The notes under the pieces were generated by a model, which saw only the letters and a program-made list of their open reading frames with translations, was not told the DNA's origin and made no database searches. DNA of 64,000 nt from Candidatus Latescibacterota bacterium (GTDB lineage Bacteria > JAAXHH01): the NCBI GenBank assembly GCA_022822725.1, contig JAJEAN010000007.1:2243045-2307044 (forward strand), read 5' to 3'. Below are positions 3,840 through 25,417 of this stretch, piece by piece. Position 1 is the first letter of the stretch. Every line of letters starts with the position of its first letter. The translations under genes and the position numbers were made by a program.

Positions 3840-3841
3840 AC

Positions 3842-3904
3842 GCACCCGTGCCCGGGGCCAGCGCACCCGCGCCCGGGACCAGCGCACCCGTGCCCGGGGC
3901 CAGC
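3842..3904. repeat. 21-bp tandem repeat, three units plus a partial fourth
   Basis: Three consecutive 21-bp units of the form GCACCCGTGCCCGGGGCCAGC (unit two differs at two bases), followed by a degenerate piece to about 3922. It fills the 83-bp gap between two convergent genes. Each unit has self-complementary CCCGGG-type cores, so the transcript could fold; the repeat may contribute to termination from either side. Confidence 0.85.
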
Positions 3905-3922
3905 GCGCCCGGAGCCCCGGCG

Positions 3923-7789: not shown

Positions 7790-8749
7790 GTGGCGCGCGG
7801 GCTACGGTATTGTGAGGATTATAGCCCTCATTTTTCGGGACACCAAACCTTCCCGCTTCGCTACGGGTGGTTGAAAAAGGCGTTCGATCGAGTCGCAGAG
7901 ACCGAGGATCGTCCCGAAAATCAGGCCGACTGTTGGGGTGAAGAAGCCATTGCGCGATTCGGCGTCGGAAAGAATATGGTGGCGTCCATGCGCCATTGGG
8001 CAAAGGCCACCCGCGTTGTGAGGGAACCCACAGGTCGTTCGGTTCAGACGACGAAACTCGGTCAATTTTTGTTCGGGCCGAAAGGTTCCGACCCTTATAT
8101 GGAGCAACCTTCAACACTGTGGCTTATTCACTGGCAATTGGCAGCACATGAAAAAGGTAAGACTACGTGGTTTTGGGCGTTTAATCACTACCCCGCTTTG
8201 ACATTCGATCGGGATTTGTTGATTACTAGGCTAGAACGGTTTGCCAAAGACCGAAATTGGTCACGCGTCGCCAAATCGACGATCAAGAATGATGTCGCCT
8301 GTTTCATTCGCACCTATGTATCTCAACAACCGTCAGGGAACATTGAATTTGACGACGCGCTTGAGTCCCCGCTCATCGAGTTAGGTCTTATCCAACCCAT
8401 CGGTATGAATGATGGATTCCGTTTCGTCCGCGGACCAAAGACGACCTTGGGTGATGGTGTCTTTATTTATGCTCTGATGGACTTCTGGTCTCGTTATACT
8501 GAAGCTGCTACACTGTCCTTTGAAGCCATTACTCATGCACCTGGCGGACCGGGGCGTGTGTTTCAGTTCGACGAGAATGATGTTATCGACCGACTTGTCT
8601 CCCTCGATGCAGTGACTGAAGGAGCCTTACGGTGGACCGAAACTGCAGGATTAAAACATGTTAGTCGAAACCTCGATCTTGAAGAATCATTGGCCCTATC
8701 CTGGATTCAAAGCGATTATGAATCGCTAGCCGGGAAGGAGGCCACATAA
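7790..8749 (+). CDS. sspB: SspB-like DUF4007 protein (DNA nickase subunit of phosphorothioation)
   Basis: A 319-aa protein with the DUF4007 hallmark near its N-terminus: FSGHQTFPLRYGWLKKAFD (residues 15-33), followed by FGVGKNMVASMRHWAKAT (about residues 61-78). In characterised SspABCD systems the DUF4007 protein SspB nicks DNA and is required for single-strand phosphorothioate insertion. The N-terminal half has winged-helix-like character. GTG start with GGAGG four bases upstream. Its stop overlaps the sspC start (TAATG), so the two are translationally coupled. Membership in an sspBCD operon divergent from sspA is the strongest support; I cannot point with certainty to the nickase catalytic residues from memory. 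Confidence 0.85.
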   Translation: MARGLRYCEDYSPHFSGHQTFPLRYGWLKKAFDRVAETEDRPENQADCWGEEAIARFGVGKNMVASMRHWAKATRVVREPTGRSVQTTKLGQFLFGPKGSDPYMEQPSTLWLIHWQLAAHEKGKTTWFWAFNHYPALTFDRDLLITRLERFAKDRNWSRVAKSTIKNDVACFIRTYVSQQPSGNIEFDDALESPLIELGLIQPIGMNDGFRFVRGPKTTLGDGVFIYALMDFWSRYTEAATLSFEAITHAPGGPGRVFQFDENDVIDRLVSLDAVTEGALRWTETAGLKHVSRNLDLEESLALSWIQSDYESLAGKEAT

Positions 8750-11700
8750 TGCCTTTGAGTGATCGCGTTCGTGTAGCCCGCCGTTTCCTTAGATCTATCC
8801 GAATTGACTCCGACTTCGGCGACCCCGAAAGCCTAGAAGGATTCGTCTGTCCGCAATCCTCAGCTGACACTCTATTGGCGATGGCACGACACGTTACCGA
8901 AACGGGACAAGGCGCATACACCTGGACTGGTCCTTATGGCAGCGGTAAATCAAGTCTGGTTATGGCTCTGAGCGCTTTGCTGAATTGTAACACTGAATTG
9001 CAGAAAGAAGCGACCAAAGTTCTAGGCCAGAATCTGACGAAAACGATCCGAGAAGCACTACCCGCCGGCACAAAAGGTTGGCGTATCGTTCCCGTTGTCG
9101 CACGCCGTGACGATCCAGTCGCTGTTATTGGAGAATGTGTAAAACAGAGAGGCCTTGTATCCCGTCAACCGCGCGGCGGCTGGACCGAAGCCAAGTTAAT
9201 CAGTGCACTGACCGACGCAGCCGCTGAAAAGCCCAGAGCGCACGGCGGACTCGTCCTCGTTATCGACGAGATGGGCAAATTTCTCGAAGCTGCTGCCCAA
9301 GACGGTACCGATATCTACATCCTCCAGCAACTTGCCGAGGCGGCGTCCCGGAGTAATGGACGTTTTCTATTTGTTGGCGTGCTGCATCAGGCGTTTGAGG
9401 AGTATGCCCATCGCCTTTCATATGAAATGCGCGACGAATGGGCGAAGATCCAGGGGCGTTTCATCGATTTAACTGTCAACCCCTCTGGTGAAGAGCAGAT
9501 CGACCTTATCTCCCGCGCGATCGAAAGCGATCATCGTCCGAAGAAGCCCGGTGCGCTGGCCTCCGCCGTCGCCGGGGTAGCGCGTCGGGACCGCCCTCGT
9601 GAAACGGAAAGACTAGGTGAGATGTTAGAGGCATGCTGGCCTCTGCACCCTGTTGTGGCGTGCCTGTTGGGACCGATATCGCGGCGGCGTTTCGGGCAAA
9701 ACCAGCGGAGCATCTTTGGGTTCCTTAACTCATCCGAACCGCACGGTTTCAAGGATTTCCTGAATCATACCACCGCCGGTGAACTATACGACCCGGATCG
9801 CCTTTGGGACTACCTGCGCACCAACCTCGAGCCATCCATCCTCGCTTCTCCTGACGGCCACCGGTGGGCCTTGGCGACGGAAGCACTGGAACGATGCGAA
9901 GCCATTGGGGGCGATATCCTTCATATCCGGCTGCTCAAGACAATCGCGATCGTCGACCTGTTCAAGGAGCGCTCTGGTCTCCTTGCGAATTTCGAGTTGA
10001 TACACGCCTGTTTGCCCGAAACCTCGGACAAGGTTCTTGAGAAGGCACTGATGCAATTGGACACCTGGTCGTTCACGATTTTCAAGAAGTTCCTAGACGC
10101 CCGTGCCATATTCGCGGGTAGCGATTTCGACATTGACCAGGCCGTTGCCACCGCGCTCGATGAATTGGACGATGTAGACTTCAAGGAACTCAACTCACTA
10201 CCTGGGCTTCAGCCAATCCTCGCCAAACGCCACTACCACAACACCGGCGCACTCAGGTGGTTCGCTGTGAATATCGTACCCGTTAGGGAACTTATGGATT
10301 TCGTCTCCGGCCATAATCAAGAAAGCGGTGCGATCGGCCAGTTCATCCTTGCCATACCGACTGAGGACGAGAACGACAGCTACGCCGAAGACCAGTGTCT
10401 CAAGGCGGCAAGCTTCAGTGATTCATGGAACACGGTTATCGGAATCTCGAATCGATCCTCGAATATCGTGCGTCTTGCGCGCGAGCTGTATGCTCTTGAT
10501 AGAGTCAGTAACGATCATCCGGAACTCGCCGGCGATCCCGTCGCACGGCGTGAGGTGTCTGCACGACTTGCGACATTGCAGGATCTACTGGTAAAAGAAC
10601 TGGAGAAGGCGTTCGACGACGCCCTGTGGTACCAGAAGAACTGTCAGCCAAAGTACCTGCGGCGGGCGGACCTTAACAACATTGCCTCCGAGTTGGCGGA
10701 TCGGTGCTTCGAGAAATCGCCGCGATTGCATAACGAACTTATGAACCGCCAGAGACCATCCGGGAGCGCTATCGCTGCACAAAACAACCTGCTGCGGCGT
10801 ATGGTCTTGAATGACGGGGAACCACGTCTTGGAATCAAAGGTTTTCCGTCCGAGGGAGGCTTGTTTGCGTCCATTCTGGAAGCGACCGGACTATACGTAC
10901 AACGTGAAAATACCTGGCGATTCGTTTCACCGAGAACAGGCTGCGACGATCCTTGCAACTTAGCCCCGATATGGAAGAGGGCGTTTGATTACGTAAAGGA
11001 GCACGCCGATCGCACGGTTGCCGTTTCCGAACTGTTTCACGAATGGCAAAAGCCGCCTTTTGGCGTAAAGTATGGACTCATGCCGATCCTTGCTGTCGCG
11101 TTCATCCAGTCGGAACGCGATAAGCTCGTTGTCTATCGGGATGGCGTATTCCGCGCGAAATTTGACGATGTGGACACGGACAATCTCGCGAAAAACCCGG
11201 CCTTTATTCAGTTACGCTGGCTGGATCTCACGGACGTGTCGAGACGTTTATTGTCCGGCATGGCGGAAATTGTTCGCGACCTCTACAAGACTTACGAGCT
11301 TGTGCATTTACAACCTATCGACATAGCGCGCGGCCTTGTTGCAATCTACGATCAGCTCCCAAAATGGACGTCTCGGACAATGCGGCTGTCCTCGAACGCT
11401 GTGTATATCCGCGACCTATTCAAACGAGCGCACGATCCTAATCAATTCCTGTTTGACGACATACCTGGAACGCAAGGTGAAGATTTAGCGCTTGCTGACG
11501 AAGACGATGTACGTCGAGTCATTCGCAATGTCCGGGAAGGACTCGAGGAATTGGTGCAGGCGTACCCCTCGATGCTGCATCGGTTACGCGACATTATGCT
11601 CGAAGAGTTGCAAGTACCAAACAACACTCCACAGGCTCTCGCCGAACTGTGTATACGTGCTGAAAATGTCAGGCAACTCGCTGGCGACTTCCGCCTTGAT

Positions 11701-12141
11701 GCATTCGTTGGACGACTGTTCTTGTACGACGGCTCAGACGAAAGCTTCGAAAGTATTGCCAGTCTCGCCGCGAACAAACCTCCCAGCGATTGGGTCGACC
11801 CAGACCTTGACCATGCCGCAATTGAACTTGCCGATATGGCACAGAAGTTCCTTCGCGCCGAGACCTATGCGCGAGTTCAGGGCCGCCCCGACAAACGGGA
11901 AGCGATCGCTTTCGTAATCGGTATAGACGGTAGCCCCAAACCTCTATTGGAAGAGTTCGACATCGCAGACTCCGACCGTGGTGCGGTAAACGATCTCAAA
12001 GAGCGTATAGCTAACGCGCTGGAGGATGCCGAAACGAGCCGCCGCAACATCATTCTGGCGGCGCTAGCAGAATTCAGCGCTGATTATATACAAGAGACCC
12101 CGCCTTTGGCAAAGAATAGGAAAGGGAGGGTCGCTTCGTGA
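8749..12141 (+). CDS. sspC: SspC-like large P-loop ATPase
   Basis: A 1130-aa ATPase, the energy-using subunit of the sulfur-insertion complex. Walker A GPYGSGKSS is at residues 61-69 and Walker B GGLVLVIDEMGK at 166-177; the following stretch to about residue 400 looks like a helicase-loader-type AAA core (HQAFEEYAHR, QGRFIDL). The long C-terminal part is mostly helical, without motifs I recognise. SspC proteins of about this size sit between SspB and SspD and hydrolyse ATP during phosphorothioation. The ATG overlaps the sspB stop by one base, and the end overlaps the GTG of sspD by four bases. Similar large ATPases also occur in BREX-type systems, but no PglZ, BrxL or methylase is present here. 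Confidence 0.83.
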   Translation: MPLSDRVRVARRFLRSIRIDSDFGDPESLEGFVCPQSSADTLLAMARHVTETGQGAYTWTGPYGSGKSSLVMALSALLNCNTELQKEATKVLGQNLTKTIREALPAGTKGWRIVPVVARRDDPVAVIGECVKQRGLVSRQPRGGWTEAKLISALTDAAAEKPRAHGGLVLVIDEMGKFLEAAAQDGTDIYILQQLAEAASRSNGRFLFVGVLHQAFEEYAHRLSYEMRDEWAKIQGRFIDLTVNPSGEEQIDLISRAIESDHRPKKPGALASAVAGVARRDRPRETERLGEMLEACWPLHPVVACLLGPISRRRFGQNQRSIFGFLNSSEPHGFKDFLNHTTAGELYDPDRLWDYLRTNLEPSILASPDGHRWALATEALERCEAIGGDILHIRLLKTIAIVDLFKERSGLLANFELIHACLPETSDKVLEKALMQLDTWSFTIFKKFLDARAIFAGSDFDIDQAVATALDELDDVDFKELNSLPGLQPILAKRHYHNTGALRWFAVNIVPVRELMDFVSGHNQESGAIGQFILAIPTEDENDSYAEDQCLKAASFSDSWNTVIGISNRSSNIVRLARELYALDRVSNDHPELAGDPVARREVSARLATLQDLLVKELEKAFDDALWYQKNCQPKYLRRADLNNIASELADRCFEKSPRLHNELMNRQRPSGSAIAAQNNLLRRMVLNDGEPRLGIKGFPSEGGLFASILEATGLYVQRENTWRFVSPRTGCDDPCNLAPIWKRAFDYVKEHADRTVAVSELFHEWQKPPFGVKYGLMPILAVAFIQSERDKLVVYRDGVFRAKFDDVDTDNLAKNPAFIQLRWLDLTDVSRRLLSGMAEIVRDLYKTYELVHLQPIDIARGLVAIYDQLPKWTSRTMRLSSNAVYIRDLFKRAHDPNQFLFDDIPGTQGEDLALADEDDVRRVIRNVREGLEELVQAYPSMLHRLRDIMLEELQVPNNTPQALAELCIRAENVRQLAGDFRLDAFVGRLFLYDGSDESFESIASLAANKPPSDWVDPDLDHAAIELADMAQKFLRAETYARVQGRPDKREAIAFVIGIDGSPKPLLEEFDIADSDRGAVNDLKERIANALEDAETSRRNIILAALAEFSADYIQETPPLAKNRKGRVAS

Positions 12142-12977
12142 CAACCGATTGTGCTAAACACGTACTTGGCCTGTCCGGCGGCCGCGACAGTGCGGCGCTT
12201 GCCGTTTATATGCGGCAACATCACCCCGAGTTGGATATTGAGTACTTCTTCACGGACACGGGCAAAGAACTGCCTGAAGTTTACGAATATCTTGGAAGGC
12301 TAGAAGGGTTTCTCGGACAACCGATACGTAGGCTGAACCCCGACCGAGACTTCGACTTCTGGCTCAAGCAGTATAACGATTTTCTTCCATCTCCGCAGAC
12401 GCGCTGGTGTACGCGACAACTCAAACTCCGACCGTTCGAACATTGGGTTCGTCCCCTGCTGTCTGAAGGGATCACGATCTACAGCTATGTTGCAATACGC
12501 AGTGACGAGGAATTTCGGGAAGGCTACTCGTCTAAACATGAACGCCTTATCGTCAAGTTGCCTTTCAAGCAAGCAGGAATCGACAAAGCTGGTGTACTCG
12601 AGATTCTCAATGGAGCGGGACTCGGGTTACCGAAATACTATTCTTGGAGAACACGAAGCGGGTGCACCTTCTGCTTCTTCCAGCAGAAGATCGAATGGGT
12701 CCGTCTCAAGGAGCAGCATCCCGAAGCCTTCGAGGAAGCCAAGGCGTACGAGAAGAACGCTGTCGAGCACGGTTCACCGTTTACGTGGAGTCAGGGGGAA
12801 TCGCTAGACGAGTTGGAACAGCCGGAGCGTGTAGCTCAAATCAGGCAGGATCACGAACAGCGCTTAAAGCGGTTGAGATCGAAGGTTCAGCCAAATCCGC
12901 TTAGGCCGGACAGCGAGCCACTGGATATTGACGATCTGTATGGTAAGGCTAAGGTGTGTCTTGCATGTCATAAGTGA
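12138..12977 (+). CDS. sspD: SspD/DndC-type PAPS-reductase-family sulfur transfer enzyme
   Basis: A 279-aa ATP-pyrophosphatase (PP-loop) enzyme that activates the DNA backbone for sulfur insertion. The PP-loop SGGRDS lies at residues 13-18, followed by FFTDTGKELPEV. Cysteines occur where an Fe-S cluster or persulfide relay is expected in DndC/SspD relatives: W90-C91-T-R, C176-x2-C179 in SGCTFCFFQQK, and C274-x2-C277 three residues before the end. GTG start overlapping sspC by four bases. Sulfur would come from the SspA persulfide. A plain assimilatory CysH is unlikely because cysDN, cysI and cysJ are absent and the Cys pattern differs. The gene ends 45 bp before the converging HNH-STAND gene. 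Confidence 0.88.
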   Translation: MTTDCAKHVLGLSGGRDSAALAVYMRQHHPELDIEYFFTDTGKELPEVYEYLGRLEGFLGQPIRRLNPDRDFDFWLKQYNDFLPSPQTRWCTRQLKLRPFEHWVRPLLSEGITIYSYVAIRSDEEFREGYSSKHERLIVKLPFKQAGIDKAGVLEILNGAGLGLPKYYSWRTRSGCTFCFFQQKIEWVRLKEQHPEAFEEAKAYEKNAVEHGSPFTWSQGESLDELEQPERVAQIRQDHEQRLKRLRSKVQPNPLRPDSEPLDIDDLYGKAKVCLACHK

Positions 12978-13022: not shown

Positions 13023-15956
13023 CTAACTTAATCTCACAAAATCTAGATTGTCTTCAATATCCTCACGGTAGTTCTTAGCGAACTCACCAATGCGAGCAGC
13101 ATCGATACCACTGAATTTCAATCTTCGAGTAAAATACACGGCGACCCAGTCAAATACCCGCATTTTGTGTTGAGCCCAGTCATGAGCTTCACAAACTATT
13201 CGTAAGATCTCCCTAAGTGTGTCATGTCCCACATCATTGTTTACTCTAAGATCGTTTTCACATTCAGCGATTAGGATTCCAAGTCGCAGTGCAATATCCA
13301 CAACTGATACGGGGAACAGTTCATCCCTGCTACGAGTGCCGGCATCAACTTGACTTGCAATGACTGTTATCGTTTCGTTGTGGCACTTCACAGAAAATGT
13401 CCCAAGCTTCGCGCCATATCCAGTAAGGCTTAGGAGGATCACGGTTCCGAACAGTTTTCGGATCATTTCGATGCAAAGTTCGTGATCGAGAGGTCGTGCT
13501 GGATCGAAGGTATGTGCCGCATTCTTGCTTAAATCAACCAGCACATTTTCTATTAAATCGTCATCTAAATGATCACGAACTCCGGGGAATTCTATGTCGA
13601 GTAGAGTGTACCCCAATTCGCCACAAGCGTTGCTCAAGTATTCTTGCATACCGACCAAGTGAAAAACTTTGGCAGCTTCGATGAAGAGCCTTGCAGCGGT
13701 CTCATGGTTGCCAAGGTGGCTTTCGCAAATACCAATTTGATGTAATGACTGTCCGCGATTCACCCCAACTGAAGCGCCACGCTCGTGCTGTATAGAATAA
13801 CGATACGCTTTCACTGCTTTCTGATATTTTTGCTGGGATAGGAGTGAAAACCCCAGTAGGCCTTGAGCGTTTGAAAGGTTATTGTGAAATTCATTTCGTT
13901 TGGATTCTAAACTACCATCCTCGTCTGCTTTATCCTTTAGTGACAATAAGCCTTCAGTCGCTTGTCGGGCGTATTGCTCCGCTTTTGGAAAATTTTTGGT
14001 CGCCAGCGCCACCATTGCTCGGCACAACGCCACATCTACAAGCACTTTCGGGTGCTCTGAATTCCTCGCAATCTTATTGACTATTGCGGTTCCTTTGGTG
14101 AACAGCGTCTTGTCTTGAGTACGTAGTGCTAAGCTAAGAAATTGCACCATCAGTACACTTGCAGTTTCAGGCCGTTGTGTATGTATTGCGAGATCGGTCG
14201 CGGCAAACATTACATGGGTACCTTGTTCTGGCAGATTTAGAACGAAGAAGTAGCGCATCAAGGACTGAACTATCGCTAACGCACTTGCCACAAGCTCATC
14301 ATCTTCGCGCCGTTCTTTAGCTAGTTCCAAGACATGCAACAAATTTGGAAGCTCGTCCCCAAACCGCTGAACCACATAAGATGTCTCCTCGGGCGTGTCG
14401 TGGTCTAGCTCTAAGACGGCTACCGTCATAGCGAAATTCCGAACTACCTGTCCGATGACTTGATCAAATGACTCTGGGTTTTCTTCTCTTCCATATTCGA
14501 TCACGAACCGTCGAATTGGTGTCAGCAACCGCGTACGAGTATCCTGATACTCGACAAAAACCAACTCAACGAGATGCCATTTGCGCAATGAGGCCTGAGC
14601 CTCAATAATGTCGTCTATGTCAAGCCATTCTTGATCGATCCAGTACGTCCAAATACCCGCTGGTGCTTGTGCCAATGCCCAAAGGAGCCGCCGACTGTTT
14701 TCTGCTTGAGCTTGGTAGGCTGTTTGAAGGCACAGTTCGAGGGAAGTTTGGCGGTAATTTTGTTTACGCCCTGGTAACTTGATGGATTTTGCGCCATGGC
14801 GAAGGATAGCATTTAACGCATTTTCAGTACCGCCATAATGTTCAGTCAAAGCTCCGGCAAGCTTGATCGTCAAAGCATGGCCATCACAAAATTCTAGCAA
14901 CTCATCGGTCTCGCCAGGTATAGTCTCCCGAACGCCAGGACAGGATTGCCTCAGAAGCGAACGACCGGCAGATACGGAAAGGCCTTCTAGCTTCAATGTT
15001 GTTTCAGCGGGTAACCGATGCAATAAGATCTGGCTTGTTGAGACGAACTGCGTGTCGGTTGTGGCGTGGAACAAATCATTGATTGTATCTTCGAACTCGT
15101 CTAGGCCATCGAGACTGGCCTGTTCGATTCCATCTAAAACCACACATGCGTGAACATCGTCTAGCCGCGCAGGTAGATCTTCAAGGCTACATGCCGTGCT
15201 ATTGATTACAATCGATGAACGTAATGCTGATACAACGTCCGCGACGGTGCTATACTGCTCAATGGCGCACCACAGTACAGGCCGTCCGGTTTCGCATCGG
15301 TTAATCGCCTGCAAAAGTAGTTCTGTTTTTCCAATACCGCCCACACCATAAACAACCGCAGAGCGTCCGGATCGTAACGCGTCTAAGAGTTTTTCAAGCT
15401 CATTCTCCCTACCAACGAAGTCTCGGGCAGCCCGTGGTGATTTTAGATGCTTATACGACTGCTGCATCCGATCCTTTAGATTTTCACGCGTCCGAGCAAT
15501 CAAACGATCTTTTATCGCCTGCAGTTCTTTGGTCGGAAGACTGTGTTGTACGTCATGCTCGCGATGGCACGCCGAGCAAATGCGAATGAGATTATTGGGG
15601 TGATGCGATCTGCTAATTACCCACGGACTGATGTGTGCCGTTTCCACACCAACGCCGCTTCCGCAACGTGCACATTCGTTTTGGCTTTCTGCCCGAAGAT
15701 GATCAAGTATCGCACTCGGGATTGAGGGGCGGTCTTCGGCGGAGTTGCTCCAAGGTTCTCCGAGCATGGTATCAAAGACATCTAACTCCGACCGGCTGAA
15801 ACGTGTCCGACCATCTTGCTCGACCGTTTCAAGTGGCCTTAGGTCTCTCGATTTGCCAAAACTTTGTTTTGTGAATTGGAATAAAAGCTCGGAAGTAATT
15901 CCGAGATGTTGGGCAGCCTCTAGCGGCGTTAGTAGAGTTTCATCCTCAGACTTCAT
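13023..15956 (-). CDS. HTH-HNH-STAND NTPase-TPR protein, probable abortive-infection effector
   Basis: A 977-aa multidomain protein, last gene of the seven-gene minus-strand operon. Residues 8-60 resemble an excisionase/MerR-type helix-turn-helix (LTPLEAAQHLGITSELLFQ). Residues 95-134 form an HNH nuclease with structural cysteines: C95-x2-C98, ETAHISPW with H108, N122, then C127-x2-C130-H131. Residues 180-450 are a STAND/NB-ARC-type NTPase: FVGRENELEKL, Walker A GVGGIGKT (204-211), Walker B VVLDGIE (272-278). The remainder is helical with TPR-like units (AARLFIEAAKVFH; QKYQKAVKAYRYSIQHE). In Avs-like defence proteins a sensor repeat domain triggers NTPase oligomerisation and activates the N-terminal nuclease; the same logic fits here by inference. 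It starts 45 bp after the receiver gene with only a weak AAGG ribosome-binding site. Confidence 0.8.
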   Translation of the reverse strand: MKSEDETLLTPLEAAQHLGITSELLFQFTKQSFGKSRDLRPLETVEQDGRTRFSRSELDVFDTMLGEPWSNSAEDRPSIPSAILDHLRAESQNECARCGSGVGVETAHISPWVISRSHHPNNLIRICSACHREHDVQHSLPTKELQAIKDRLIARTRENLKDRMQQSYKHLKSPRAARDFVGRENELEKLLDALRSGRSAVVYGVGGIGKTELLLQAINRCETGRPVLWCAIEQYSTVADVVSALRSSIVINSTACSLEDLPARLDDVHACVVLDGIEQASLDGLDEFEDTINDLFHATTDTQFVSTSQILLHRLPAETTLKLEGLSVSAGRSLLRQSCPGVRETIPGETDELLEFCDGHALTIKLAGALTEHYGGTENALNAILRHGAKSIKLPGRKQNYRQTSLELCLQTAYQAQAENSRRLLWALAQAPAGIWTYWIDQEWLDIDDIIEAQASLRKWHLVELVFVEYQDTRTRLLTPIRRFVIEYGREENPESFDQVIGQVVRNFAMTVAVLELDHDTPEETSYVVQRFGDELPNLLHVLELAKERREDDELVASALAIVQSLMRYFFVLNLPEQGTHVMFAATDLAIHTQRPETASVLMVQFLSLALRTQDKTLFTKGTAIVNKIARNSEHPKVLVDVALCRAMVALATKNFPKAEQYARQATEGLLSLKDKADEDGSLESKRNEFHNNLSNAQGLLGFSLLSQQKYQKAVKAYRYSIQHERGASVGVNRGQSLHQIGICESHLGNHETAARLFIEAAKVFHLVGMQEYLSNACGELGYTLLDIEFPGVRDHLDDDLIENVLVDLSKNAAHTFDPARPLDHELCIEMIRKLFGTVILLSLTGYGAKLGTFSVKCHNETITVIASQVDAGTRSRDELFPVSVVDIALRLGILIAECENDLRVNNDVGHDTLREILRIVCEAHDWAQHKMRVFDWVAVYFTRRLKFSGIDAARIGEFAKNYREDIEDNLDFVRLS

Positions 15957-16001
15957 TCTAATGCCTTAGTGTCAATCGTTTGGTTTTTTTGCCTCTTCGT
16001 T

Positions 16002-17903
16002 TCAATTATCCCCTGTGGAATGAATGTCCGAAACCCTCAATACGAAAGGTGCATTGCGTTTATTACCTCTAGGGGTATATCCTTCTTCGACACCCTCATT
16101 ACGTAAGATGTGAAAATAAACCTTGTTGTCTGCGCCTTTCTCTGGCTGCCAATTTCCATCTTTCAGTGGGACTTCGATAAGTCCTCTTTCAATGCGTTCG
16201 AAGAATTCGGAATCAGTCTTCATAGCTACTAGACTTGGCCTTGCAATTGTATGAACATCGTCCGGTGGATAATCTAGGATCATTCCCCTCAGTGCATCAC
16301 ATACCTCCTCTCTAAGCACCAAACGATCCACGCGATTTCCCTCAGTATCTCTGCCAACGAAACAAACAGCAACATCCGATTCGTCGCCCGCAATTGGAAG
16401 CTCAGTTGCGTTCGGTGCCATCACAAACAACGAAATTGAAACGGGGAATGTTGCAGGCGGGTTGGCGGGCTGCCCGATACGTCCCATGTCCGCGAGCAAT
16501 CTCTGCTGTATCTCGGTTGTGTAAATGTCACGGATTCTACCTAAGCGATCGAACTTCTTCCCTATTTGCAGTTCTTGACTCAAGCAGGCGAGTTTTATTG
16601 TTTGTCGACGTTTCAAATGCCACTTGATCCAGTACCTTGATCCGTCCTCGGATGCGATAATTGGCGTCTTGGTAATAGTTGAGTCATAGCACCAATCTGC
16701 AGCAGCTAGCGACATCAGAGTGCCGGGTAGTACCAGCACAAATTCCGTACCGCTACGGGCAAGGTCACAAGCTGGTGTCGCTACAAGAAGTACATCATTC
16801 GTCAAGGCACCTGAATTCTCATCCTTGTGTTGCAACACGTCACCGTACTTAAATGTGGGCGTCTCACTTTCGAAAGAGAGCTTCAAACGTTCTGCGTTTT
16901 GAAACACCATTCGGTGTACGAGATCTTGTAGATCGGGCGATCCAGCTAAATGAGGAGCAGGATACTTGGCAAGCTCGATTTTGTTGAGTTCTTGGGCCGC
17001 CTTGATTGTTCCAGCTTCGGCTTCAATTTCATGCTGCAATACACGATCTGCAACATCCAGAAGATACTCTCCGAGCTTCTGTCCTTCGAAATCTAGTAAA
17101 AGCGCTCGAACCTGCGCAAGGTCGGGTAAGTCGAGTCTACGTAGAATCCGGATGAAGTTCTTGTGCGCCTGATTAAGACCGACTTCCCAAGCATGGACGA
17201 AAGCAGCTACTCGCTTGGCATCTTCGTAATGGTTGGCTAACCTTGTCAGGATTGTCTCTAATCTCCCGGCATTGGTTAGTTCATCTTTGCTTGCAACTCT
17301 GAAAGTCGATCCGAGAAGTCCCGCCCTGTCACGAAACTCATTGCGTTTCTCTCTCAGCCGGGGACTTCGCGACATCAACACCACTAATGGTGGACTAGCT
17401 GCACGATCAGCAAGAAGTTCGGAAACTCGGAGAATAGCGCGCTCCATATCACCTTCGGATTGATGGAAACCGAGGAACAAATCGATTAAAACTAAGTCTG
17501 CATTTCTGGCATCTTCATGAATCTCCCTTCCCATCGTTGTGCACATTAGGCCTAAAGCTCTGAGAGCTGTCACAAGCGCATCGAGTCCAGTCCGTTCTGT
17601 CGCTTTGGTGTTTTCGTAGTTCCTGAAGAGGTAATCCCCAACCGAACCTGGAAGTTCTTCTCGGTTATCCCAAAGCACTCGGACAAACTGCGGCGACACC
17701 CTAAGATCATCAGGTTTTGTGTCTTCGTATGACGGGTACAATTTCGAAAGAAGTACGTTACCTGCCTCGTCGAGGTCGTCGAAGAAGTAGGTCCAGTCAC
17801 CTTCGTCGAGTTCATCCGGACGTGGTGCTTCGTCAAACACATCGTCAATGACAACGGCCTTTCGAATACCCTTGTTTTTCAAAAGCAACAGCAGTTCTGT
17901 CAT
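16002..17903 (-). CDS. Receiver-domain protein partnered with the GHKL ATPase
   Basis: A 633-aa protein. The N-terminal 215 residues carry all hallmarks of a divergent two-component receiver domain: acidic pair D20/D21 in AVVIDD, candidate phosphoacceptor D141 in LVLIDLFLG, S178 in LVVLMS, and K206 in RVASKDE, with an unusually long insert between the first strand and D141. The remaining 400 residues (for example FKYGDVLQHKD, LLVATPACDLARSG) match no family that I can name; they are the likely effector or target-binding part. The start codon overlaps the stop of the GHKL/kinase gene as ATGA, so the two products are made in step. Similar receiver/GHKL gene pairs are known from comparative-genomics surveys of prokaryotic immunity. 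Function inferred: phosphorylation- or contact-controlled response to infection. Confidence 0.75.
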   Translation of the reverse strand: MTELLLLLKNKGIRKAVVIDDVFDEAPRPDELDEGDWTYFFDDLDEAGNVLLSKLYPSYEDTKPDDLRVSPQFVRVLWDNREELPGSVGDYLFRNYENTKATERTGLDALVTALRALGLMCTTMGREIHEDARNADLVLIDLFLGFHQSEGDMERAILRVSELLADRAASPPLVVLMSRSPRLREKRNEFRDRAGLLGSTFRVASKDELTNAGRLETILTRLANHYEDAKRVAAFVHAWEVGLNQAHKNFIRILRRLDLPDLAQVRALLLDFEGQKLGEYLLDVADRVLQHEIEAEAGTIKAAQELNKIELAKYPAPHLAGSPDLQDLVHRMVFQNAERLKLSFESETPTFKYGDVLQHKDENSGALTNDVLLVATPACDLARSGTEFVLVLPGTLMSLAAADWCYDSTITKTPIIASEDGSRYWIKWHLKRRQTIKLACLSQELQIGKKFDRLGRIRDIYTTEIQQRLLADMGRIGQPANPPATFPVSISLFVMAPNATELPIAGDESDVAVCFVGRDTEGNRVDRLVLREEVCDALRGMILDYPPDDVHTIARPSLVAMKTDSEFFERIERGLIEVPLKDGNWQPEKGADNKVYFHILRNEGVEEGYTPRGNKRNAPFVLRVSDIHSTGDN

Positions 17904-20272
17904 GAGACTACAACCGTATCGGGAAGCGTCAAAACGAAACGATGGAGTCGTCCGGTATCAGGGTTGGCCTTCTCGTCTAGTGTCAGAGTGCCACCGTGGT
18001 ATTCAGCGCATTCCCGGGCGATATACAGCCCGAGCCCTCTTCGTTTTGACTTCTCTTTAAGTGAGAAAAATGCCCGGAAAACTTTTTCCCTGTTCTCCTT
18101 CGCGATTCCACGCCCGTTGTCCTCGTAAATGATAGTTAGGGGATCCTCTTCGATTTCTAAAGTGATGCGCGGCTGAAAGCTAAGATCGTGCTGGCTGCGC
18201 AACTCGAGCCAGTAAAGGGAGTTCGATATCATGTTCTCGAGTATCTGCACGATCATACCCTTGACCGCGCGAATACGAACAGCATTTTTGGACATTGATG
18301 TATTTAGCTTTACGTGGTGACGCTTAAATTGTAGTTCGTGGCCACTGAGGATATCATGGATCAAGGTACCCAGATTGAAGGTTTCTTTACGTTGACGGCC
18401 AGACACGCTGAGCGGATCGAGAACACGAAGCCGCTTGCTTACTGCTGTCATCTCGGACCGAAGTGAGCTTAGAAGTCCATTTATCTGGTCTGGAACTTTC
18501 TGGCCGCGTAGGGCTTCAAGAGCTGCTAGGGCGTTCTCCGTCGACCGCGCCAACTCATGCGCTACGACCTCGACAAGCAGTCCTACACCAGCCATCTGCA
18601 ACATCTGCCGATTCTCACTTTCAACCTCTGCGATTCGGCTTTGGGCACGATCAAAATAGGTTCTGATCTCAAAGAAAGTGTGTTGTAATTCCTCCACGAT
18701 TTCCACTGAGTCTGGGGCAATTCGCTTGATCTTCCGAAGTGCCGAATTTGCCCTCTTTTCGAGATCAGAGACGTTTGATTTGGCATCCGTCATGTCGAGA
18801 GGCTGGTCCCGGTGACGGCTCTGGACATCCTTCAAAAAATCTCGAAGGTGATACTGGATGACGAATTGAAGAATGTTTATGAATGCTTGCTGTTCGGGGC
18901 AAACTCGCAAACCTTCGCGATTCGTCTGATCAATAAGCAGGGGATTGCCGAGCCGTGATATAGTCACACGACCTACGAATTGTGCCTTGTTCAGTAGGTA
19001 TCCAGTACTTCCAAGCGCACGCCGATCCAGAGATAGCCAATCGTCGTCGTCCTCTCCATATGGCAGTACCCGGAAACCGTCTCGAAACAAAAGGATTCCT
19101 GACCAGCGCCTTTGTAGCTCACGTACCTGGTTCCGATTTCCAATACTGTCAATTGCTCCTAAGCGCTGCCTGTTAAACCAATAGGCTTCAAACTCAAACT
19201 CGCCTAGATCGTTTAGTGCGGAAATGGGTACTTCTCTCGACGTTCCCGTTATTGAACTTTCTAAATCGGGCAGTGCTAATACTCTTCTCTCAACTTCGTG
19301 AGGATGCTCGAATCCTAGGTTCAGAGCCTCGAGTCGACATTCCAGTGCCGGACCGGAATTTCTGTAAACAAAACTCCCCTTTACGGAAGCGTGCGCATGC
19401 TCCAATAGGTGGCCGTCCATATGGGCAACTGGAACGCGCGTATTATTCCAGAATACGGCTATACGAGGTCGATGTCTCGCATCTTCGAATGGATCGGTTA
19501 GCCGCGCAAAGTCATGTTCGCCGAGTTGTTTAACGCGATCATTAGTCCAGTCGGCACTCAAGGCGCGGATAATCAACCGAGTTCCGCTCCAATCTGATTC
19601 CTGCTTTATCTCTCCAAGTTTGGGTGTGACGTGTACATCATCAAGCATCGCATCAAGGTCGCCGAACTTCGACCAATCGATGTTGAGCAGGTTCAGTCGT
19701 TTGTCGTTTTCTCGTGCCGTTTCGACAGACAACCTGTCGCCTAACCGCATGGCCGAAAGCCGCCCGATGCCCTTCTCACCTAAATACGGTGCTCGGTGCT
19801 TACTTGCAGCAGAATTGATAAGAGCGGCATCGATTGCTCGTTTCCGGGAGGCCGTTCCAATCACCAAATAATTGTCGATCAAGTCCTGCTTTGACATCCC
19901 TGAGCCCGTATCGGACACTATGATCGTGTTTTCGGCAGCGTATGTTATATCAAGAGCCTCGACAAAGGACTCTAAATCTTCCACTTCGCTGATTGTCTCT
20001 TGAAAACGATTTATGGAGTCTATTGGTGCGGAAGGGTCTAGCGCATATACGAGATCCTTTTTTAGTCGATTGACTCCTGCCGTCCCATCGATAGCTCTGC
20101 GCCGAAACTTCAGGTAGTCATTGCGACGAAGCACGACTTCGAAACGTATCTCTGCGCCGTTTGGCGACTCAGCATCAAACGCATTCTTGATCAACTCATA
20201 AAACGCGATCACGTCAGAACTAATAAGCTCCGCACCTAGTTCCAGAACAGTCCGGGCAGTAATCTTGAACAA
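17900..20272 (-). CDS. Double GHKL ATPase: MORC/Hsp90-like N-terminus plus histidine-kinase-like C-terminus
   Basis: A 790-aa protein with two GHKL folds. The N-terminal one has ELIKNAFDAE (residues 26-35), DTGSGMSKQDL (121-131) and GEKGIGRLSAMRLG (165-178), typical of MORC/Hsp90/MutL-type ATPases. The C-terminal one follows a predicted helical dimerisation segment with H572 in VVAHELARS (H-box-like), an N-box ILENMISNSLYW near 680, DNGRGI near 718 and RRGLGLYIARE near 747, as in sensor kinases. TTG start with GGAGG eight bases upstream. It lacks transmembrane or PAS input domains, so the signal is probably cytoplasmic. The overlapping downstream receiver gene suggests a phosphorelay or an ATP-driven complex. 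Which of the two GHKL sites binds ATP is unknown. Confidence 0.8.
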   Translation of the reverse strand: MFKITARTVLELGAELISSDVIAFYELIKNAFDAESPNGAEIRFEVVLRRNDYLKFRRRAIDGTAGVNRLKKDLVYALDPSAPIDSINRFQETISEVEDLESFVEALDITYAAENTIIVSDTGSGMSKQDLIDNYLVIGTASRKRAIDAALINSAASKHRAPYLGEKGIGRLSAMRLGDRLSVETARENDKRLNLLNIDWSKFGDLDAMLDDVHVTPKLGEIKQESDWSGTRLIIRALSADWTNDRVKQLGEHDFARLTDPFEDARHRPRIAVFWNNTRVPVAHMDGHLLEHAHASVKGSFVYRNSGPALECRLEALNLGFEHPHEVERRVLALPDLESSITGTSREVPISALNDLGEFEFEAYWFNRQRLGAIDSIGNRNQVRELQRRWSGILLFRDGFRVLPYGEDDDDWLSLDRRALGSTGYLLNKAQFVGRVTISRLGNPLLIDQTNREGLRVCPEQQAFINILQFVIQYHLRDFLKDVQSRHRDQPLDMTDAKSNVSDLEKRANSALRKIKRIAPDSVEIVEELQHTFFEIRTYFDRAQSRIAEVESENRQMLQMAGVGLLVEVVAHELARSTENALAALEALRGQKVPDQINGLLSSLRSEMTAVSKRLRVLDPLSVSGRQRKETFNLGTLIHDILSGHELQFKRHHVKLNTSMSKNAVRIRAVKGMIVQILENMISNSLYWLELRSQHDLSFQPRITLEIEEDPLTIIYEDNGRGIAKENREKVFRAFFSLKEKSKRRGLGLYIARECAEYHGGTLTLDEKANPDTGRLHRFVLTLPDTVVVS

Positions 20273-20371: not shown

Positions 20372-20833
20372 TTAAGCTACTACTCCTTTTCTGAGAAGGG
20401 AGTCTACCGCATCCGACAAATTCCAGATTGGCTCCGCATCGCCTTCCTTGAGCATTTCGATGACTTTTGGAAGGCCAGCCACGGCAAGGCCGTTAGCTAA
20501 TGTCATCATTTGGCGCGGCTCAGATACGACCTGTACATCGCCAGACTTGGCGATTGCAATTAACATGAGAGTGTGAACTCGCCAAGGGTCACTACCAAAT
20601 ATCGATCCGTCGATGATTTTTCTGGTGTCGTAATCCGTGATGTCGGCAGGTTCAAGTCCGAGTCGACTCGCGATGCAAACGGACAGAAACCAGAGATCGA
20701 CCATGCGCGGAAACGGACTTTGGTCAATCACCGCATCAGCGCTACGTTGGCAGTATCGTGTGAATGCTTCGTGGAATTCGACTGGTACGTTGATATCGAT
20801 TGCCTGGAAAGGATTGAAATACCGATCCGCCAT
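20372..20833 (-). CDS. Small helical protein resembling Dnd-associated proteins
   Basis: A 153-aa soluble protein. I chose the ATG at 20833 because AAGGAG sits five bases upstream and because it leaves a 22-bp spacer after the SMC ATPase stop; a start at 20965 would add a 44-residue hydrophobic/low-quality leader inside the neighbouring gene. It is mostly helical, with MVDLWFLSVCIASRLGLEP (44-62) and DPWRVHTLMLIAIAKSGD (82-99). This layout (two central helices, a lysine-rich turn, then a phage-sized C-terminal helix) resembles small proteins linked to dnd clusters (Dnd-associated protein 4 type), as I recall them; similarity is weak. Position between the DndD-like ATPase and the GHKL gene supports a role as an adaptor or DNA-binding partner of the ATPase. 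Confidence 0.65.
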   Translation of the reverse strand: MADRYFNPFQAIDINVPVEFHEAFTRYCQRSADAVIDQSPFPRMVDLWFLSVCIASRLGLEPADITDYDTRKIIDGSIFGSDPWRVHTLMLIAIAKSGDVQVVSEPRQMMTLANGLAVAGLPKVIEMLKEGDAEPIWNLSDAVDSLLRKGVVA

Positions 20834-20855
20834 TCTCGACTCCTTATGAAGCCAC

Positions 20856-22985
20856 TTAGAGTTCGAACTGAACATCTTCGTAGCGCAGACAGAGTTGGCA
20901 ATCACTACGGTGGTCACATTCACAACGTACCACCCTGCGCTCTGAAACACCAGGATCGTTAACAAGCATTTTGGGATAGTGAACAGGATTGGTCAACGTA
21001 AAAACTAAACCCGCGGACTCGTCTATGATTTCCTCGCAGCCAGCGATTTCGTCGTGTGTCAGAAATAGGATCAGTTGGGTGCTCTCGCGCACCGCTGTAC
21101 GTAGAATGGAGTGCTTGACGAAACCACTCGTCATACCGAGTGGAGTATCAATCACATTCGGCGCTTCGACTTCACTTACTTTTGTCAGTGCGAGTATGAA
21201 GGCGAGAGTCAAAGCGCGGCGCGAGGCACCGTTTAGGTCACGATCGGGGTTCAGCGTCCTGTCGTTTGGTCCATAAACGATGATATCGAACTCGTGGCTT
21301 ATTTCCGCGCGCTGTATCATTGATCCCTGTTCCGGATCCGCGCCGATCATCTCGAGAAAAACACTATTCATCAACTCACTGACTTTTCGCAACTCCTCAT
21401 TTGTGATCCGCTGATAGGCACTTTTTAGTATCTTCATTACGTCCTGAGTAACTTCAAGTTCGGCCAGAATACGCGCACCCCTTTTTTGTTCACGCAGAAG
21501 ACGGTCGCGCTCAACTTCCAGCACTTCACGCTCACGGCTCAGCCCCGTTAACTGTGTTCCGATCGAGGACTGTTTTGACAGATAGCGATCCCGCAGGTCC
21601 TTGTACCTGCGGCGGGTTTCTCGTAGACCCTGTATGTCCGTGTCAGGAAGTGAGTCGAGTTGCATTTCAAGCGCTCGGAGTTTCCGACCCGCTTCATCAC
21701 GTAGCGTTTGGATTCCGTCGCGTCGTTCGACCACTTTCTTGAACTCCTCTTGCCACGCACTCGTCTCCGCTCCTCGACCACCCTGTAACGACTTCGTACT
21801 GTAGTACAGGTCGGTAATGATTTCCTGGATTTCATCGGCGCGTTGATTATCGTCGATTAACTTCTGTATATGTGCGCGACGATTATCTCCGTCTGGATTG
21901 CCCGGTACCAGCGTTTCCCCACAAATGCAGACTTTTGCTTCTAGACGATCATACAACACGGGTATCGTTGTATTCGGAATCTTGCCCTGATTGTGTAGCT
22001 CTTCAAGTGTATTAAACGCCCCCACAAGCACGGGTGTGAGCAGGCCCGTTGCGATGGACCGGCCGCGAAAAAGCGCCGAGTGTTCCTTGTTCGCCGCTGC
22101 AAGTTGGCTGTCGAGTTGTGAGATTTCCGCCCGTGCGTTTTCGAGGTCTTTGCGCAACTTAACTTTGTCGCCCTTTTGTAGTGCCGCTGCGATCTCTCGG
22201 TCGACTTCGTCAACTTTCTCGTCGAACGCGCTGAATTGTTGTTTCGCGTCCTCAAGATCAGTTTCTAGTTTCTCACGGTTGTTTTCCATCGCTTCGAGGC
22301 GCGTAGCGATCGAGTTTAGTTGGTCGCTTCCGCCGACTTGCTTCGCCTTTTTGTTAACTTCAGCCGCCGACTTGCGTACATGTTTGATCGCACCGTCGAC
22401 CACACCGAGTCCAAGAAGAGATCTTATAGCCCGTTGCACACGCTCGCGTTTGGTGGACAATGCAACATCGGCCTCGATAAAGCTTAGCGCGCGGTCGCCG
22501 TCGGTGAAGAATACCTCCCGCAGTTCCGGCGGCAGTTCATCGTTAATGAGGGCTTCCGGCGCATCTATTGGACTTGCACCGGTTTCATTCAGTGCAAAGA
22601 GCTTTACGGTAGAGTCAAAGCGCCGAGTCCCGCCGTCTACTTCCTCAAATGCAGAACGTACGAGACGATACCGCCTGCGTGTTTCGCGCACTTCGCCCGA
22701 CGTACGGCGATACGTCGTTAACTCGAACTCCACCGTTGCGATGATTGGAACGCGATTGCCTTCCCTCTCATCCCAGTCGATTGGATGCAACCGAAACCCC
22801 TCTCCCTTATCTGGCAATGCCGCGTCGCCATAGAGTGCCCATTGCAGACCGTGGAGTATAGTCGTCTTGCCCGATTCATTCGCCGCTCGGATTACTGTAA
22901 GATTCGTGTTTGGATCGATAGAGAACTCAAGCTGAAGATCTCGGAGCATGCGGAAGTTTTGAAATTCAGCACGAAGTAGTTTCAT
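20856..22985 (-). CDS. DndD-like SMC/Rad50-type ATPase
   Basis: A 709-aa SMC-like protein. Walker A AANESGKTT is at residues 34-42, followed by a DndD-like VFFTDGDRALSFIEAD region near 150. Long coiled-coil arms flank a possible hook at about 353-355 (KVCICGETL, Cys-x-Cys rather than the Rad50 CxxC). The signature-like NGASRRALTLAF lies near 585 and Walker B NVIDTPLG near 611. The tail has four clustered cysteines (RCECDHRSDCQLC), a likely zinc site. The ATG at 22985 overlaps the upstream small gene as ATGA, which fixes the start better than an upstream TTG/ATG. DndD in Dnd systems is an ATPase of the modification complex; here, because sspC already serves modification, I infer it works with the PLD-helicase in restriction or DNA sensing. 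Confidence 0.8.
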   Translation of the reverse strand: MKLLRAEFQNFRMLRDLQLEFSIDPNTNLTVIRAANESGKTTILHGLQWALYGDAALPDKGEGFRLHPIDWDEREGNRVPIIATVEFELTTYRRTSGEVRETRRRYRLVRSAFEEVDGGTRRFDSTVKLFALNETGASPIDAPEALINDELPPELREVFFTDGDRALSFIEADVALSTKRERVQRAIRSLLGLGVVDGAIKHVRKSAAEVNKKAKQVGGSDQLNSIATRLEAMENNREKLETDLEDAKQQFSAFDEKVDEVDREIAAALQKGDKVKLRKDLENARAEISQLDSQLAAANKEHSALFRGRSIATGLLTPVLVGAFNTLEELHNQGKIPNTTIPVLYDRLEAKVCICGETLVPGNPDGDNRRAHIQKLIDDNQRADEIQEIITDLYYSTKSLQGGRGAETSAWQEEFKKVVERRDGIQTLRDEAGRKLRALEMQLDSLPDTDIQGLRETRRRYKDLRDRYLSKQSSIGTQLTGLSREREVLEVERDRLLREQKRGARILAELEVTQDVMKILKSAYQRITNEELRKVSELMNSVFLEMIGADPEQGSMIQRAEISHEFDIIVYGPNDRTLNPDRDLNGASRRALTLAFILALTKVSEVEAPNVIDTPLGMTSGFVKHSILRTAVRESTQLILFLTHDEIAGCEEIIDESAGLVFTLTNPVHYPKMLVNDPGVSERRVVRCECDHRSDCQLCLRYEDVQFEL

Positions 22986-23227
22986 GAGTTCATTTCCTCC
23001 GTGCCAGTGCTTTGGCTGCGCCGCGTCGCGAGGAACCTTGCCGCAGCATTGCACTTTTCATTGATCTTCTTCTGGATGTTTGTCGCAGAAACCCGATGGC
23101 CTCGCTCGAATTCCAGAATATCCGAAACTACTTCGATAATCTCTTCTTTGTAGCCATCGCATCGTTCCTCTATCCCGTCACATTGTTCAAGGATGATCGT
23201 AACAATCTTTCTATCGTTCAGTGGCAA
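22982..23227 (-). CDS. 81-aa helical protein between helicase and SMC ATPase
   Basis: An 81-aa charged, helical protein with no family that I recognise. TTG start with a strong GGAGG six bases upstream, placed in the 15-bp spacer after the helicase stop; the end overlaps the SMC ATPase start by four bases. Such tight packing on both sides argues strongly that it is translated. Residues such as KEEIIEVVSDILEFERGHRVSATNIQKKINEKC suggest two amphipathic helices, compatible with a small subunit bridging the helicase and the ATPase. No signal peptide or membrane segment. Confidence 0.65.
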   Translation of the reverse strand: MPLNDRKIVTIILEQCDGIEERCDGYKEEIIEVVSDILEFERGHRVSATNIQKKINEKCNAAARFLATRRSQSTGTEEMNS

Positions 23228-23242
23228 GTTGTTCCTCCTGTT

Positions 23243-25417
23243 TTACAGAAACGCGGCTTTAACCATTTTGTCGATTGTCGCTAAAGGTCCGTCCGGTCGG
23301 CCTGCGTTTCTAGCCAGTCTCGCAAACTCCTGAGCACGGTGCAATTCTGACCGCACAAGGGCGCGCGCGTCGGGGTCGAGTCCTTCTTCCATGCCCGGTG
23401 GTAAGGCTAATAGATCGTGGATAACGCTGTGCGTTTTACCAATGGCACTACAGGTACGCAGAAGACGTCCGCGTCGTTGCACCCATTGCCTTTCAACCGT
23501 CGTGCTCGCTAGAATGAACGCTTTGCGAATCTGGGGAATGTTCACCCCTTCATCGAGCACGCGTTTTGCGGTCAGCATCTGGATTTCACCCTCCTGAAAG
23601 GACTTGATGATCCTATTCGTCTGATCCCGGTTAGCGGTTTCCTCAGCTGTGAGTTGGTGGAACAGTATATTCCTACTACTCAGCAACCGATTCACTCTGT
23701 CGAGTTGGTCCGGTCCCTTGTCCGAAGTGTAAACCAGCGTATGTTGCAGGCCGTTGGTGTCCTCTTTCTCCAGGAGATCACCCAGAATGGCAACCTTGCA
23801 CATAGCCATTTCCAGCAAAGCGCGCCGGTCACGCAGCAATTTCGCAAGATACTCGTCAGGCTTCCCGTCTTCACTGCCGCGCCAGGCGTTCTGTTTGATT
23901 TTGCCAGTGAGGTTGAACCACTCGTCCATTTCGTTAGTCGTGAGGTACACGGTGTGCACGTAGTAATCGTATTCGACAAGGCAACGGCCGATGGCTTCTT
24001 CTAGTGTGTAACGAAACACGACGGGGCCGAAGAATCCGAAAAGGGCATCTGTTCCTTCTTCATCATATTGGCGTATTGGTGTCGCCGACAAACCGAGACG
24101 AAATTCGATGAATTCGGGCGGATTTTTGATGAATGATGACCGCCCGAGGTTGTGCGCCTCGTCCGCAATCAACATTCTCGCGCAGTCGAACGCCTCGACG
24201 GCAGCAAGGAAATCCGGGGTACAAAGCGTGTCCTGGCTGACAACAACCACTTCGACATCTGACAGGCCGGTACGCAACCGACGTCTTAGTTTTTGCAGTT
24301 CGCTCGCGCGTTTCGGGGCGTTTCCAGCCTTCGTGAGATTGATAGGAATTAGCCCGAACGGTGCGATTTCGTCGCACCACTGGTTTATCAGCGGCACATA
24401 GGGAGCAGCAACGACGATCAGCAGTGGCTTGTTTTTTTCGTAAAGACGGTACGCGCTGATCATCGCTGTGATCGTCTTGCCTGAGCCAGTCGCCATTTCC
24501 AGAACGCCGCGATACCCAGCATCACACCATGCCTCTACGGCTTGGGCTTGATGCTCAAACGGTCCTTTCTCGAATTCGAGCCAGTCGGGTATCTCGAAGC
24601 GGGCGGGTTGAATTTGCACTGGCTCGAATGGCTCCGGGTTGTCTGCAATACCGGTCACTCGCCCGTACAGAGATCGCAATTCGTCTTCGGTCGGCGGTGT
24701 ATCTTTGGAGTATGCGCGTAGTAGGCGTTGGCGGATCGCTTCGGGCAACCCGATGACGACACAGCTGTCATCTTTGTTGGTCCAGAGGCGGGCGAACTCG
24801 TAATGCAACTTGTGAGCGATGTAGTGCTGATTGTAATCTTGCCATGATCTCGATATCGCGATTTGTTCGATATTCTTGTAGGTTCCTGCATAGGTCATGT
24901 TGCTCGATCCGTGTACGGCCATGAGATCACCGTCATTTTCAAACAACCAGACTTTCGGATGGAAAAGCGCGTCCTTCATTAACGCGATCCTGATTTCTAC
25001 GCGCCCCACACGCAACAACCAGGACAGACATTTAAGCGTGTGACGCTGAAGCACATCTTCCGTAATCGTCAGGTTCTTGAAAATCTGATCCGCAACTTCT
25101 TCTACCGGCCTTAACCCGTCCTCAATAGCGGTTTTGTCCTCTGCACGCAACAGAGGGCTAATTATGAGCCTGAGTTTATTTCCGGAATCGGTAATGTAGG
25201 TCGCGAGGCCTGGGGCAAGCGAGGCCAGCACCTCACTTGAGAAAAACCCCACCATACAATCTACTTTGTCTGCTGCTTGAAACCCAGGAATCAGGACTTC
25301 TTCGGCGAGAGGATCGCTCGGCAGCATATAGAGTGGCCGAACTCCCGTTAGTGACAGTAGTTTCTGTCCCGCTTTTACGGTTGCGGGCGTCTCCAGTTTA
25401 ACTGAATCTTGCACCAT
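23243..25417 (-). CDS. PLD-nuclease/SF2-helicase fusion, phosphorothioation-linked restriction candidate
   Basis: A 724-aa protein, first gene of the seven-gene operon. Residues 25-200 form a phospholipase-D-like nuclease half: H153-P-K155 followed by an acidic stretch and GSSNMT (170-175). Residues 285-690 form a superfamily 2 helicase: Walker A MATGSGKT (308-315), DEAH (419-422), SATP (444-447), DEGVNIP (622-628) and QRRGRLLR (647-654). PLD-helicase fusions of this type are annotated in databases as DNA phosphorothioation system restriction enzymes, and they also occur in type III-like restriction and other defence loci. GGAG nine bases before the ATG. With a single HKD-like motif the nuclease probably works as a dimer. 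Its neighbours suggest cleavage of unmodified DNA. Confidence 0.82.
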   Translation of the reverse strand: MVQDSVKLETPATVKAGQKLLSLTGVRPLYMLPSDPLAEEVLIPGFQAADKVDCMVGFFSSEVLASLAPGLATYITDSGNKLRLIISPLLRAEDKTAIEDGLRPVEEVADQIFKNLTITEDVLQRHTLKCLSWLLRVGRVEIRIALMKDALFHPKVWLFENDGDLMAVHGSSNMTYAGTYKNIEQIAISRSWQDYNQHYIAHKLHYEFARLWTNKDDSCVVIGLPEAIRQRLLRAYSKDTPPTEDELRSLYGRVTGIADNPEPFEPVQIQPARFEIPDWLEFEKGPFEHQAQAVEAWCDAGYRGVLEMATGSGKTITAMISAYRLYEKNKPLLIVVAAPYVPLINQWCDEIAPFGLIPINLTKAGNAPKRASELQKLRRRLRTGLSDVEVVVVSQDTLCTPDFLAAVEAFDCARMLIADEAHNLGRSSFIKNPPEFIEFRLGLSATPIRQYDEEGTDALFGFFGPVVFRYTLEEAIGRCLVEYDYYVHTVYLTTNEMDEWFNLTGKIKQNAWRGSEDGKPDEYLAKLLRDRRALLEMAMCKVAILGDLLEKEDTNGLQHTLVYTSDKGPDQLDRVNRLLSSRNILFHQLTAEETANRDQTNRIIKSFQEGEIQMLTAKRVLDEGVNIPQIRKAFILASTTVERQWVQRRGRLLRTCSAIGKTHSVIHDLLALPPGMEEGLDPDARALVRSELHRAQEFARLARNAGRPDGPLATIDKMVKAAFL

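Follow-up and report, generated by a model that had tools for sequence, protein, structure and literature searches.

A PbeABCD antiviral cassette beside SspABCD phosphorothioation genes in a Candidatus Latescibacterota bacterium

The closest described counterpart of the locus discussed here is the PbeABCD system of Haloterrigena jeotgali, which consists of a PLD-helicase, a 66-aa protein, an SMC-like protein, and a 152-aa protein (Xiong et al. 2019; PMC6459918). In that organism, each of pbeB, pbeC, and pbeD is essential, pbeA is required in part, antiviral activity needs DNA phosphorothioation (PT), and virus that is itself PT-marked escapes. Replication is blocked, and Southern blots showed no cleavage of viral DNA. 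Deletion of pbeB abolished protection, while pbeABCD without PT was harmless, which favors mark-dependent activation over a simple toxin (PMC6459918). Rakesh et al. (2024; PMC10853773) described PbeC as an ABC ATPase with a CxC hook, PbeD as a cognate of DndE, and PbeB as a small protein that evolves quickly. Linkage to Dnd PT genes is seen for 42% of published PbeAC and hence is not strictly defining. In the literature found, Pbe is paired with Dnd, and Ssp, the single-strand PT system, with SspE or SspFGH (PMC6459918, PMC10853773, PMC8092258, PMC11662687, PMC12839542, PMC12707154, PMC7464106).

How does the present locus compare? The window, by which we mean the whole 64,000-nucleotide stretch of contig JAJEAN010000007.1 that was analyzed, carries four consecutive genes on its minus strand. 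pbeA (positions 23243 to 25417) encodes a 724-aa protein with an N-terminal PLD (HKD) nuclease domain and an SF2 helicase; pbeB (22982 to 23227), recognized from its position and sequence conservation, a predicted small helical protein of 81 aa; pbeC (20856 to 22985) a 709-aa ABC ATPase of the Rad50/DndD type; and pbeD (20372 to 20833), recognized from a profile match and its position 3' of pbeC, a putatively DndE-like protein of 153 aa. The helicase matches the PADLOC PbeA model (E=5.8e-195) and the ATPase the PbeC model (E=5.1e-52); TIGR04095 (dnd_restrict_1) also matches PbeA at 373 bits, under its 600-bit cutoff. The assignment of these genes to the published, PT-dependent antiviral cassette PbeABCD is firm. 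Both DndCDEA-PbeABCD of H. jeotgali (PMC6459918) and the CxC ABC-ATPase/DndE-anchored systems (PMC10853773) share with the window the four genes, their order, and the nearness of PT genes, and the small proteins are alike in size (PbeB 66 versus 81 aa in the window, PbeD 152 versus 153). The modification partner differs, being Dnd (double-strand PT) there and SspABCD (single-strand PT) here, and the window PbeC adds a C-terminal four-cysteine motif and has NGASRR in place of SxGE.

A preliminary description of this DNA had pointed to a helicase stop codon, a TTG-started gene of 81 codons behind a strong ribosome-binding site, and an ATGA overlap, and all are present on the minus strand. The pbeA stop codon, TAA at 23245 to 23243, is separated by 15 nt from the pbeB open reading frame (ORF), whose TTG start at 23227 follows the ribosome-binding site AGGAGG (23239 to 23234) after a 6-nt spacer. 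The TGA of pbeB overlaps the ATG of pbeC as ATGA (22985 to 22982). Homologs of PbeC align from this ATG at 22985, and a longer call from a GTG (23054) is not conserved. The 153 codons of pbeD lie 22 nt past the pbeC stop, and their ATG is preceded by the ribosome-binding site AAGGAG (20840 to 20845, minus strand); an ORF call of 197 aa uses a TTG inside pbeC, but homologs align from the ATG. Of 38 related loci examined, nearly all have a small ORF (about 53 to 100 aa) directly 5' of the ATPase gene, most commonly with the same 4-nt overlap. Such ATGA overlaps are common in bacterial operons and signal coupling, not subunit ratio. The coordinated translation proposed earlier is upheld by an overlap kept across relatives, but "stoichiometric" was an inference, as the overlap gives no ratio. 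The three-gene core proposed at the same time is indeed a tight operon, though its fourth gene, pbeD, had been missed. Promoter and terminator scans of the pbe operon gave results at chance level only.

PbeA contains PLD and helicase domains only (Pfam PLDc_2, ResIII, DEAD, and Helicase_C), and the best solved relative of its N-terminal domain is 7clg (E=5.7e-6). Residues H153, K155, G170, S171, N173, and E184, with their spacing, are the same in 24 of 24 homologs, as are the helicase motifs, at identities down to 25%. The spacing of the H, K, N, and E residues is presumably the same in the PLD enzyme BfiI. Such strict conservation of the PLD residues argues, at the level of sequence, for nuclease catalysis by PbeA. 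The PLD motif of the window protein has the form HxK(x)4E, which was reported for SauUSI, a PLD-helicase that translocates along and cuts DNA (PMC7913695). Like PbeA, SauUSI fuses a PLD nuclease to an SF2 motor; unlike PbeA, it is a single protein with a built-in target-recognition domain, and the DNA that it attacks is modified. The C-terminal DUF3427 or target-recognition domain of SauUSI type IV enzymes is absent from PbeA by Pfam, and PbeA has three partners.

The ATPase had been called SMC type, and the locus had been likened to Wadjet or SbcCD. Could the cassette be a loop extruder, as Wadjet is, or an SbcCD-like nuclease that senses DNA topology or ends and is blind to modification? PbeC is a coiled-coil ABC ATPase and distant kin of SMC and Rad50, and the window shares with Wadjet and SbcCD the use of an ATPase of this superfamily in a DNA-directed system. 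However, its CxC at residues 353 and 355, invariant in 23 of 23 homologs, is a hook and not an SMC hinge, and among solved structures Rad50 (3e-26) matches ahead of SMC (4e-15). The nuclease is of another kind, no SbcD-type metallophosphoesterase domain or other matching partner domain was found by Pfam among the cassette proteins, and the closest systems are PT dependent. We therefore rejected SMC/Wadjet on the hook, the structural matches, and the domain content, and SbcCD on the missing SbcD domain; a modification-blind extruder or end sensor is very improbable, and the system is the known PbeABCD. The broader idea behind the comparison, that a nuclease-helicase and an ABC ATPase form a defense core tied to DNA phosphorothioation, was right.

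Neither PbeB nor the window PbeD matched any model in NCBIfam, Pfam, or PADLOC, which is why both were identified by position and profile comparison. PbeB is 63 to 79% identical in the nearest relatives, where it has the same position, and the family has the common core hhxxhLxhER. Comparison of the window-clade PbeB profile with other PbeB gave P=2.6e-4, against P=0.35 for a control. A chance ORF is ruled out by this conservation of place and sequence. The predicted structure is helical and found no match with Foldseek; the alignments behind the PbeB and PbeD models were shallow (12 and 11 rows), being made of window and related-locus sequences only. That PbeB is a bridging subunit, as first suggested, is plausible. 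A very different role follows from the proposal of Rakesh et al. (2024; PMC10853773), in which PbeB holds the PbeA nuclease off until a phage product removes it, whereupon PbeA cuts host DNA and kills the cell ahead of phage maturation. A small, fast-varying protein that is translationally coupled to its neighbors would suit such a role, as would the intact HKD nuclease of PbeA. PbeB is not featureless, however, given its family-wide core and helical model, and the loss of protection on pbeB deletion, together with the harmlessness of pbeABCD without PT (PMC6459918), is a poor fit to a released poison, so that we regard suicide as unlikely here.

The window PbeD was matched to known PbeD by profile (probability 97%, E=1.3e-10), and a homolog is kept 3' of pbeC in related loci. 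By sequence, PbeD found only chance matches in the PDB. Its model (mean pLDDT 74) shows two strand-helix-helix units, and Foldseek aligned it to DndE (7x4e) with a TM score of 0.41 to 0.51 and E=3.6, most other listed matches being near 0.18. In profile comparisons with DndE, other PbeD gave P=0.003 and the window-clade PbeD no match. Since the Foldseek E value is weak and the profile matches are weak or absent, the link to the DndE fold is suggestive only.

Do the Pbe genes travel together? The preliminary description had named their independent occurrence in other genomes as evidence against a joint function. Within 385 alphaproteobacterial genomes, they do not occur apart: PbeA was found in 8 and PbeD in 6, and all 6 PbeD genes lie beside PbeA (hypergeometric 6e-12), although 5 of the 6 matches were members of the search profile, so that the result is less a measure of linkage than a sign that no stray PbeD exists within reach of a search this sensitive. 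The two genomes with PbeA but no PbeD are G511, where the contig is cut within PbeC, and G763, with a broken copy. Among gammaproteobacteria, PbeA is present in 4 of 369 genomes, the seed being one of the 4.

What sets this locus apart is its partner; the Pbe trio itself was already known. A complete SspABCD set, by its genes a single-strand PT system, lies 7 kb from the pbe cassette. sspA (6248 to 7459, minus strand) encodes a cysteine desulfurase (Aminotran_5, E=1.1e-82) and is divergent from the plus-strand genes sspB (7790 to 8749; DUF4007, E=4.9e-88), sspC (8749 to 12141; an ATPase, PADLOC SspC, E=0, 1317 bits), and sspD (12138 to 12977; a sulfur-transfer protein of the PAPS-reductase family, PADLOC SspD, E=2.3e-137). 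No match to dndC was found in the window genome, nor in the genomes of the related loci L009 to L012. With SspABCD nearby and no dndC in the genome, the partner here is Ssp and not the usual Dnd. The modification half is the same as in SspABCD-SspE and SspABCD-SspFGH, but the restriction half in the window is PbeABCD, and no helicase or PLD protein is reported for SspFGH as described (PMC8092258).

Ssp and Pbe genes adjoin in ten distinct loci: the window, L009, L011, L012, L020, L025, L031, L032, L048, and L049. Dnd genes adjoin pbe in L023, L024, L029, L030, L033, L034, L036, L037, L039, L042, L045, and L046, and methylase genes do so in L026, L028, L035, L041, L043, L044, and L053 to L055; because the related loci were gathered by similarity to the window, these partner counts are not frequencies. 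One might suppose that pbe and ssp simply share a defense island and do no joint work, the self mark of Pbe being some other modification or none. The two operons in the window converge and lie three genes apart, so they are not one operon, related cassettes lie beside DNA methylase genes or lack any modification gene, and no SspD was found in the draft genome of L010, whose cassette belongs with the Ssp-linked ones. Against this stand the adjacency in ten loci, three of which (L020, L048, and L049) have SspB-SspC-SspD-PbeA-(PbeB)-PbeC-PbeD as a single co-directional block on one strand, the clustering of Ssp-linked PbeA described below, and an excess of coincidence in an unbiased genome sample. 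In the 385 alphaproteobacterial genomes, Pbe adjoins 3 of 9 Ssp loci; with the seed genome left out, there are 2 coincidences where about 0.15 would be expected (P=0.008). Mere cohabitation has, in our judgment, quite a small chance of being the whole explanation.

In the PbeA tree, nine Ssp-linked proteins and that of L010 form one clade (support 97/90), and the Ssp-linked L025 is nested with Dnd-linked rows in a group with support 100/100. This pattern points to an old Ssp-Pbe partnership plus one later re-pairing; the position of L049 is less sure because of its long branch. As for PbeC, the four-cysteine motif (residues 688 to 699 in the window) and the signature NGAS(R/K)R (NGASRR in the window, where SxGE is usual) are found in the complete proteins of the Ssp-linked clade, the basal L049 excepted. 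The PbeC of L025 has neither, so these features mark the clade and not Ssp use as such. A second genome of the window's genus, G002, holds a quite different PbeA cassette (L037) linked to Dnd genes, so Dnd and Ssp PT systems alternate within one genus. The recurrent pairing of Ssp with Pbe appears to be undescribed: no account of it was found in the literature covered, which took in a minority of subscription papers and main texts rather than supplementary tables.

Several neighboring genes deserve mention. Past pbeD, on the minus strand, a 790-aa protein (17900 to 20272) has an N-terminal GHKL ATPase and a C-terminal histidine-kinase ATPase domain (Pfam HATPase_c_3, HATPase_c), and is followed by a 633-aa protein (16002 to 17903) that has no Pfam match and whose N terminus looks receiver-like by eye. 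Both occupy the same place in L011 and L012, at 69% and 52 to 56% identity, respectively. They are possible accessory genes, and the pair may be a phosphorelay that controls the cassette. In L010, a GmrSD_N (DUF262) protein lies beside pbeD (15028 to 16329). Between sspD and the pbe operon in the window lies a gene for an HNH nuclease-STAND ATPase-TPR protein (13023 to 15956), which has no homolog in the relatives' loci examined and is perhaps a separate defense gene. At the window edge, two ORFs (144 to 2095) look McrB- and McrC-like by eye.

Other Ssp loci carry other neighbors. In four alphaproteobacterial loci with Ssp and without Pbe (L071:2797-7204, L072:14378-18840, L075:12653-17008, and L076:359-4836), Ssp adjoins a trio of SF2 helicase, GHKL ATPase (PADLOC MzaB-like), and PLD nuclease, and 12 of 12 high-coverage plasmid matches to the trio GHKL protein were in records that also hold SspD. 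This trio is possibly an undescribed Ssp effector, set apart from SspFGH by the latter's description. In L074, a SauUSI-like PLD-helicase-DUF3427 protein of 1122 aa (740 to 4108) adjoins SspA. Taking Pbe, trio, and SauUSI-like loci together, a PLD nuclease and an SF2 helicase are present in 8 of 8 readable alphaproteobacterial Ssp loci. Directly 3' of SspD, a protein with a DndB/DGQHR domain is encoded in L009 (16731 to 18508), L031 (4797 to 5408), and L072 (12510 to 14293), of which the first two have Pbe and the last lacks it. A partner gene of 173 aa accompanies it in L009 and L072; the protein is perhaps a DndB-like regulator on the Ssp side.

How might the two halves work together? Quite probably, the PbeABCD antiviral cassette of this locus acts with the adjoining SspABCD modification genes: Ssp would mark host DNA, PbeC and PbeD would read the mark, and PbeA, with PbeB, would act on unmarked DNA. 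In such a scheme, SspABCD would place sulfur marks on one strand of host DNA, and a complex of the hook-type ATPase PbeC and the small, presumably DNA-binding and DndE-like PbeD would scan DNA and look for the mark at target sites. On unmarked incoming DNA, the complex would hand over to PbeA, which PbeB would either recruit or keep inactive. The SF2 motor of PbeA would then translocate and its PLD site nick or cut, stopping replication. As the published PT dependence concerns double-strand (Dnd) marks, the reading of single-strand Ssp marks by PbeABCD is proposed by analogy.

Overall, it seems somewhat likely that SspABCD-PbeABCD is a distinct and long-lived PT defense system, in which one PbeABCD lineage, with PbeC features of its own (the four-cysteine tail and NGAS signature), is dedicated to single-strand Ssp marks, and that alphaproteobacterial SspABCD is served by interchangeable effectors that combine a PLD nuclease and an SF2 helicase in three architectures. 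In the literature found, PbeABCD activity has been shown only in haloarchaea; the present loci add bacterial counterparts, some of them arranged as a single compact block, and their invariant PLD residues sharpen the dispute on whether PbeABCD cuts DNA. If Ssp marks do drive PbeABCD, then one effector family would read both double-strand and single-strand sulfur marks, and what PbeABCD recognizes could be tested by swapping the modification genes.
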